Source: an uncultured Pelagibacteraceae bacterium (GTDB lineage Bacteria > Pseudomonadota > Alphaproteobacteria > Pelagibacterales > Pelagibacteraceae). From it: DNA of 64,000 nt. How positions within the stretch are numbered: position 1 is the first letter of the stretch; every line of letters starts with the position of its first letter. Shown here one piece after another: positions 47,455 through 49,394 of the stretch. Below the pieces are notes generated by a model that had not been told where the DNA came from, searched no databases, and worked only from the letters and a program-made list of their open reading frames with translations. The stretch is from the NCBI GenBank assembly GCA_902595625.1, contig CACJQQ010000001.1, forward strand, positions 1 to 64,000. Direction: 5' to 3'. The translations under genes and the position numbers were made by a program.

Positions 47455-47563
47455 ATAGCAAAGGCAGCTTCAGTCTCCCTCCACTGCCCTTAAAGATAAT
47501 TTATCCGATTCGTAAAATTTATTTAAGACTCTTTTTAGTTGTATGTGGATATTAAAACTATAT

Positions 47564-47800
47564 TTATTTTAATATTTTTCTATACGCAAAAATTACAGCA
47601 AAAACTATTATTAATGCCGCTATTCCTTGCTCACCTAAAGCGTTAAGTAAATTAATTAAATTTTTTGTTACTTGAGAGCCAAAAAAAGCTACATCCGGTC
47701 CAAATACAATCTCTGCTATTACTGAAACGGCTAGTAATAAAATTCCTAATTCTAAAAATTTATTTAAATATTTTGTTAATGTTGAAACCCAATTAAGCAT
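47564..47800 (-). CDS. Small hydrophobic protein (78 aa), paralogue of the neighbour
   Basis: ORF with an RBS-like AAGGAAAAAATTATG; aligns with the 47890-48105 product. Confidence 0.7.
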   Translation of the reverse strand: MLNWVSTLTKYLNKFLELGILLLAVSVIAEIVFGPDVAFFGSQVTKNLINLLNALGEQGIAALIIVFAVIFAYRKILK

Positions 47801-47820
47801 AATTTTTTCCTTTTTTTTAA

Positions 47821-47846
47821 CCGCCCTAATTATAAACTTAGGGCGG
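47821..47846. repeat. Perfect inverted repeat CCGCCCTAA-N8-TTAGGGCGG between the two small hydrophobic-protein genes
   Basis: 9-bp perfect GC-rich stem in AT-rich DNA. Function not determined. Confidence 0.85.
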
Positions 47847-47889
47847 CTATATAAAAAGCTAATTCGAGGGAAGTAGCTTTAGTTGTTTA

Positions 47890-48105
47890 TTACTTAAACA
47901 AGTTTAGGATGATTATAGCTGCAATTAATCCAACTATGCCTGCATCACCTAAAGATTGTACTAAACTAATAATGTTACCAGCTATTTCGCCTACGAATGG
48001 AACATTTCCACCTAATAGACTTACAGCGATACCTAACGCAAGTAATGAAACTACTACTTTTGTTAAGCTGTCAAACATTGAAGTTAATCCTGAGATTGCT
48101 TTCAT
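47890..48105 (-). CDS. Small hydrophobic protein (71 aa)
   Basis: MKAISGLTSMFDSLTKVVVSLLALGIAVSLLGGNVPFVGEIAGNIISLVQSLGDAGIVGLIAAIIILNLFK; strong AAAGGGGGATAACATG ribosome-binding site. Confidence 0.75.
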   Translation of the reverse strand: MKAISGLTSMFDSLTKVVVSLLALGIAVSLLGGNVPFVGEIAGNIISLVQSLGDAGIVGLIAAIIILNLFK

Positions 48106-48213
48106 GTTATCCCCCTTTTTTTATTAATAAAAAATCAAAACGAATCATATTCGCATTGAATTACGAACTTTTATCATCAAGAGAGTCTACCCACACTAGA
48201 AAAGAAATCTAAC

Positions 48214-48272
48214 GACTCATAATGAACTCTTTTTACAAGCAAATGACACTTTTAATGTGTGCAATATGAGTC
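48214..48272. repeat. Inverted repeat GACTCATA...TATGAGTC enclosing an inner GACAC...GTGTGC repeat
   Basis: 8-bp perfect outer arms (48214-48221 / 48265-48272), between tRNA-Ser and the small hydrophobic-protein genes. Confidence 0.7.
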
Positions 48273-48282
48273 TTGTTTTAAA

Positions 48283-48372
48283 TGGCGGAGAGAGAGGGAT
48301 TCGAACCCTCGAAACGGTTTCCCGTTTACACGCTTTCCAAGCGTGCGCCTTCAACCACTCGGCCACCTCTCC
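48283..48372 (-). tRNA. tRNA-Ser (anticodon GGA), long variable arm, CCA encoded
   Basis: Reverse complement GGAGAGGTGGCCGAGTGGTTGAAGGCGCACGCTTGGAAAGCGTGTAAACGGGAAACCGTTTCGAGGGTTCGAATCCCTCTCTCTCCGCCA. Confidence 0.97.
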
Positions 48373-49394
48373 TAGTTATAATCATCAATTAGTTTGATGA
48401 ATCTTTCTATGAACTCTTTATTGGTTGGTAGCTTATTTTTTTTCATATCTTTTTGAATTTTTTTATAATTTTTTTTAATATTGTTTAAAGTTCCTAGAAA
48501 ACTTAAAAAATTTCTTTTTGTAACAAAAATCCCTTTTTTATCTCCTATTATATGTTTGATTTCATCAAAAATTACTACTGGTCTTCTTCTTGCCAAAGCC
48601 TCGAGCAAAACCATTGGATGACCTTCTGTGAATGAAGGCAAAACAAAAATATTGTGATCGTCGTAATGTTTTATTAATTTGGTTTTATTACTCTGTGTGG
48701 GAAGTATTTTTATATTGCTTTGATTTATATTATTTGAGCTCCCTTTTTCAGCTCCAATAATTGTCAGAGAAATATCTCTTTTATTTCTTATCAACTCAGA
48801 CAAGGCAAAAATTCCTTTTTCTACTCTTATTCTACCAACGTATAACAATTTGAAATATTTAATTTCTATATTTTTAGGTTGTCTAAGCCAAACTGAGTCT
48901 AATTGTGATGGACTAATAATTTTTCCTTTTTTTCCTCGAAGAATGTAATCTCTGCAACTTATTAAATTTGAAATGGCACCAGTTATGCTAAACATAAAGT
49001 GATAGATAAGTGGGCCAATTTTTCCTAGAATTGCTTTGTATTCTCCATAACCATCACTTCTTAAATAAACAATAGGTTTTCGTCCTAAAATTTTTAGAAA
49101 TATCGAAATTAAGAAAGTATAAGGAGAAATAGAAATTATCAAAAATTTTGAGTCTGGATTTTTTGATGCACTTTTAACCTCTGACAAATAAGAAAAAATA
49201 TTATTAAATACTTTTATTCTTTTAATCTTAATTTCATGAGATCGCTTTTTGACTGATTTTCTTCCTAATAGATTAACTTCAAATTTCTTATTCAAACCCT
49301 CTGGGGTTGATTTTAAGTCTAGGTTATCACAATAATATTTGTCTTCTTCAATTGAAATACTTTCATTTGAAAAAATAAATAGTTTTTTTTTCAT
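48372..49394 (-). CDS. Glycosyltransferase (group 1 / GT4-like)
   Basis: [56 protein letters not shown]. Confidence 0.9.

Follow-up and report, generated by a model that had tools for sequence, protein, structure and literature searches.

Two short reading frames lie one behind the other on the minus strand of the window, by which we mean the whole 64,000-nucleotide stretch of DNA that was analysed. The question they raise is whether such small hydrophobic products come from genuine genes and, if so, what a tandem pair of them could do in the membrane. The first-pass annotation had described the 78-aa and 71-aa products as paralogues with two hydrophobic segments each, and both points were borne out by our analysis. 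The two proteins, called A and B here (Table 1), share 33% identity over 63 aa (BLASTP as a single comparison, E = 8e-8), and they also match reciprocally at the profile level, the profile of B orthologues finding A with 36.9 bits and that of A orthologues finding B with 34.0 bits. Hydropathy places the hydrophobic segments at about residues 13-35 and 51-71 in A and at about 14-35 and 55-77 in B. AlphaFold2 returned two long helices for A and helices at 2-33, 44-54 and 57-77 for B, in both cases with moderate confidence (monomeric models, pTM 0.39-0.47). In the product of gene B, Glu30, close to where the first hydrophobic helix ends, is invariant, and an FGP motif is present. Lys/Arg residues are present at the N- and C-termini of both proteins; judged on sequence, the topology of A and B is probably N-in/C-in, with both ends in the cytoplasm. 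As to whether the frames are translated, nucleotide differences to relatives are mostly synonymous, which shows that A and B both encode protein: on comparing the window with a related locus (L062), 11 synonymous and 0 non-synonymous differences were found in gene A, and 17 and 4, respectively, in gene B. A and B are real genes under strong purifying selection and not chance ORFs. The strong ribosome-binding site that had been reported for one of the two genes is present on the upstream gene, A, and a comparable G-rich site is found in its relatives. The corresponding site of B is weak or absent in several relatives from a second SAR11 family (f2).

Table 1. Coordinates of the genes and of the sequence elements of the A-B locus within the window.
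Feature	Position	Strand	Description
Gene A	47890..48105	minus	71 aa two-helix membrane microprotein, subfamily A; ORF, conserved family, purifying selection
Gene B	47564..47800	minus	78 aa paralogue, subfamily B; ORF, conserved family, purifying selection
Shine-Dalgarno of A	48110..48117	minus	AAGGGGGA, four bases 5' of ATG
Shine-Dalgarno-like site of B	47809..47814	minus	AAAAGG, eight bases 5' of start
Intercistronic hairpin	47818..47849	minus	12 bp stem, then A-rich rather than U-rich sequence
Small hairpin just 3' of the A stop	47855..47880	minus	predicted fold; pyrimidine-rich loop CTTCCCTCG
Inverted repeat in the leader of A	48136..48158	minus	CAATGCGAAT-ATG-ATTCGTTTTG; by inspection

It had also been stated at first reading that the proteins belong to no recognised family, and searches of Pfam, NCBIfam and PHROGs indeed gave no relative. 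PDB sequences and the PDB and BFVD folds likewise offered nothing convincing for the family, and no published description of it was found in the open-access literature. Weak matches were obtained to TIGR03745 (12 of 37 members, best 2.5e-4) and to T4SS_pilin (3 of 37 members, 0.0076), and it may be noted that scores at this level are common for hydrophobic sequence. TIGR03745, the VirB2-like conjugative membrane proteins and the pilins of type IV secretion systems resemble the family in their short double-helix build and in these weak matches of some members; they differ from it in that neither A nor B of the window has a match and in that no conjugation genes were recognised among the neighbours identified.

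Homologues in other strains were looked for and found in other SAR11 genomes, and all the close relatives with named records are Pelagibacterales (SAR11). A and B are the only family copies in the window's genome, which is 72% complete (0.79 Mb in 29 contigs). Profile searches of three overlapping samples of SAR11 genomes gave exactly two copies in every matching genome (26/26, 15/15 and 23/23), and the tandem order in the SAR11 loci read is A, hairpin, B. On going through the window's family, the pair was found in 15 of 198 genomes, and in 4 of the 122 that are at least 90% complete; as it is missing from most of these near-complete genomes, it is dispensable there. In family f2 it is present in most of the sampled genomes. 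A profile search of the Alphaproteobacteria matched 40 of 385 genomes (about 10%) from about twenty families. Many of those outside SAR11 have a single copy, and tandem second genes with a hairpin between them occur outside SAR11 in five families (f73, f47, f74, f62 and f218). The A profile gave no convincing match outside Alphaproteobacteria in a sample of other Pseudomonadota. Weak matches in three genomes (G018, G030 and G032) were discarded because neither profile found a relative there. A and B belong to an apparently unnamed family of two-helix membrane proteins of 70-80 aa that is found in Alphaproteobacteria and in phages.

The first-pass annotation implied a gene duplication inside a streamlined genome, and this is the part of it that was not supported. 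In the largest tree, SAR11 A groups with the A-like proteins of other Alphaproteobacteria and with two phage proteins (100/81), and the SAR11 B proteins lie outside that group. A tree in which all SAR11 copies are kept in one clade is worse by 16 to 19 log-likelihood units. AU tests against a SAR11-only origin gave p = 0.071 and p = 0.036, the rows of the second having been picked after the first, so that the rejection of such an origin is marginal. SAR11 A and B do not form one clade in the trees, and a recent SAR11-specific tandem duplication is not supported. As A and B fall in separate alphaproteobacterial subfamilies, the duplication probably predates SAR11, an origin which trees of fewer than 80 alignment columns favour and do not settle.

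The large spacers noted at first reading are real, and they hold conserved structure. The A-B spacer of the window folds with -28.0 kcal/mol (z of -5.2), and a folding z below -2 was obtained for 41 of 46 distinct spacers (median -4.6), the sequence of the stem varying among lineages with its pairing kept. Three tandem loci (L138, L143 and L226) gave no significant spacer fold, and no Rfam family was found for the spacer elements. In the window, A residues come directly after the stem, which is therefore no canonical terminator; the intercistronic stem of some relatives is terminator-like. The hairpin may protect the upstream message or terminate it in part, by which A would be made in excess of B. 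This excess is suggested by the presence of a hairpin between the genes together with the position of the window's ribosome site for B just after it. A comparable arrangement is that of the puf operon of Rhodobacter (pufBA-pufLM), where a strong hairpin likewise separates small-membrane-protein genes from the next gene. The puf hairpin, in work attributed to Klug in 1987 and listed among the references of PMC6238624, reportedly affects the stability of the mRNA segment. There is no sequence relation between the two systems, and for the effect that we infer for the A-B hairpin, puf is an analogy rather than a relative. Loops similar to that of the small hairpin after the A stop are found in many related spacers of family f1. 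By eye, the pyrimidine-rich loop at 47855-47880 and those of the family-f1 relatives might form base pairs with A's G-rich ribosome site. The arms of the inverted repeat in the A leader vary in parallel among lineages (by inspection, no statistics).

Within the window's genus the two genes immediately precede a convergent NlpC/P60 gene, at the end of a variable interval that starts at lepA and holds a tRNA-Ser; neighbours here were assigned with Pfam. All seven pair-bearing loci read in this genus have the pair at this site. Other loci with the same flanks are without it, and in two of them the NlpC/P60 gene comes almost directly after the tRNA-Ser. That the pair is patchy within one SAR11 genus and keeps to a single site, by tRNA-Ser in a hypervariable interval, could be explained by a phage-exclusion or defence protein that spreads via this variable part of the genome and that phages copy or counter; the homologues in phages (see below) would fit. 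However, the diverse chromosomal sites in other Alphaproteobacteria and the presence in most sampled f2 genomes look like a cellular function, and we regard a defence protein as quite improbable. Outside the window's genus the neighbours vary from family to family, so that no partner gene betrays the function. No prophage context was seen in the bacterial neighbourhoods read. As a separate observation, the interval from lepA to NlpC/P60 (about 47460-49394 in the window; L170-L189), with its tRNA-Ser(GGA), is hypervariable across SAR11 genomes and has differing cargo, and one locus (L185) has two tRNA-Ser(GGA) predictions.

The family is also widespread in viral sequences. A search of IMG/VR with an alignment of alphaproteobacterial members and a few from phages gave relatives on 471 contigs, the best 80 of which were retained; a second alignment found 81. 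Each of the 126 viral contigs read has one family copy, and many of them carry T4-like phage genes; many are fragments, and their neighbours were partly read by eye. Among selected phage neighbours, gp23 major capsid, portal, prohead protease, RecA-like, ammonium transporter, tail fibre and terminase were assigned by Pfam/PHROGs; tblastn to annotated phages was used for gp23 and gp32 neighbours, and ThyX, dUTPase and Hsp20 were assigned by eye. Some contigs have the family gene in a late module, with gp23 on one side and a tail-tube-like gene on the other, flanked by portal and prohead protease, downstream of a tail fibre, or before a terminase-like gene, and in many contigs its neighbours are ThyX and gp32. 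Of the 84 distinct phage cases, 75% have a hairpin of at least 7 bp after the gene, compared with 30% of the 254 control genes (p = 4e-13, a value that is too small because the phage rows are related). No match was found in the cultured T4-like phages HTVC008M (whole), Mosig (two of three parts), Melnitz (20 kb) and P-SSM4 (20 kb), nor by blastn with the DNA of the phage gene. A tblastn search of plasmids and phages gave no real match, which is weak evidence of absence since the low-complexity filter probably masks the query.

Could the phage copies be holins, and the bacterial ones domesticated pairs of holin/antiholin type that control lysis? Class II holins are defined by their size, two helices and N-in/C-in topology (PMC9636201), and the family, being short, two-helical, probably N-in/C-in and present in phages, matches them (e.g. 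S68 of phage 21) on these points; the late-module location in some contigs would also agree. Yet the holin profiles of Pfam, NCBIfam and PHROGs gave no significant match, the best being 0.038 in 1 of 37 members, and of the 126 contigs, many of them fragments, only 11 have a recognised cell-wall-hydrolase-like gene, which is kilobases away from the family gene and not adjacent to it. The position by ThyX and gp32 in many contigs, and bacterial genes that are under purifying selection in neighbourhoods that, where read, are not prophages, also speak against lysis proteins. The family departs from class II holins in that no profile match or linked endolysin was found and in that its bacterial copies are mostly chromosomal and often paired, and we consider holins an unlikely explanation.

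A rather unlikely one, in our estimate, is that of a host protein for membrane homeostasis or an accessory to transport, which phages would carry as an auxiliary gene keeping the infected cell energised. In its favour are transporter-type genes beside the family gene. An AmtB-type ammonium-transporter gene is the neighbour in 7 phage contigs, and binding-protein genes of transporter type are in 4. In SAR11 family f2 the neighbour, read from sequence, is an amino-acid ABC transporter, and several bacterial copies adjoin transporters. But transporters are not significantly enriched: they make up 7 of the 50 nearest genes and 3 of the 50 distant ones (Fisher p = 0.32; a few of the assignments were made by eye). 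In L325, L331, L333 and related phage contigs, and in L308 and L317, the family gene is placed directly before an ammonium-transporter gene (Pfam 7e-102) or before transporter-type binding-protein genes.

The explanation that we prefer, tentatively and as possible rather than probable, is that A and B form a two-subunit assembly of the inner membrane in which A outnumbers B, and that it acts in permeability or homeostasis and has also been adopted by phages. This assembly would be small and oligomeric and would consist of A and B as its two types of subunit, each of them a helical hairpin with a short amphipathic helix after the turn. We infer the oligomerisation and the excess of A; in favour of the model as a whole are the two copies in every matching SAR11 genome with their tandem order, the spacer folds within and outside SAR11, the positive residues at both termini, the AlphaFold2 helices, which would agree with a hairpin, and the phage copies with the hairpin that follows them. 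The first-pass annotation had proposed oligomeric pore or membrane-organising peptides, and on the sequences such a putative role is possible. The assembly may alter or guard the permeability of the membrane (ion or proton leak) and so be useful to the cell and to phages; a role of this kind is proposed because it would explain most economically why cells and phages have the family in common, and a permeability function is speculative. The family does not require such an assembly of two subunits, since many Alphaproteobacteria, and every phage contig read, carry one copy only. Also against the model are the three tandem loci with no significant spacer fold, the moderate confidence of the monomeric structure models, the lack of a conserved partner gene and the absence of the pair from most near-complete genomes of the window's family. 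That the undescribed family as such is a two-component, RNA-tuned membrane device of Alphaproteobacteria, repeatedly acquired and kept by uncultured T4-like and other phages, is somewhat doubtful. If true, it would be a new class of small membrane effector between SAR11-like bacteria and phages. If the family controls permeability, it would be a candidate for host management or lysis by phages and for membrane tuning in SAR11 relatives, and with A and B on either side of a hairpin the subunit ratio can be tested directly. It may be added that a family under strong selection, present in ocean bacteria and on hundreds of phage contigs, is missing from Pfam, NCBIfam and PHROGs.

The stretch between B and the NlpC/P60 gene holds a further conserved noncoding element, with the hairpin AAGGGCAGTGGAGGGAGACTGAAGCTGCCTTT (47460-47491, minus strand; conserved to about 47560). 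Of 78 Pelagibacterales genomes, 19 have exactly one copy of the 15-mer GGAGGGAGACTGAAG, genomes without the pair included, and in another genus it is found within a terminator-like hairpin with a T-run. The AAGGGCAGTGGAGGGAGACTGAAGCTGCCTTT/GGAGGGAGACTGAAG element is a candidate small RNA, or a candidate terminator with a conserved loop.
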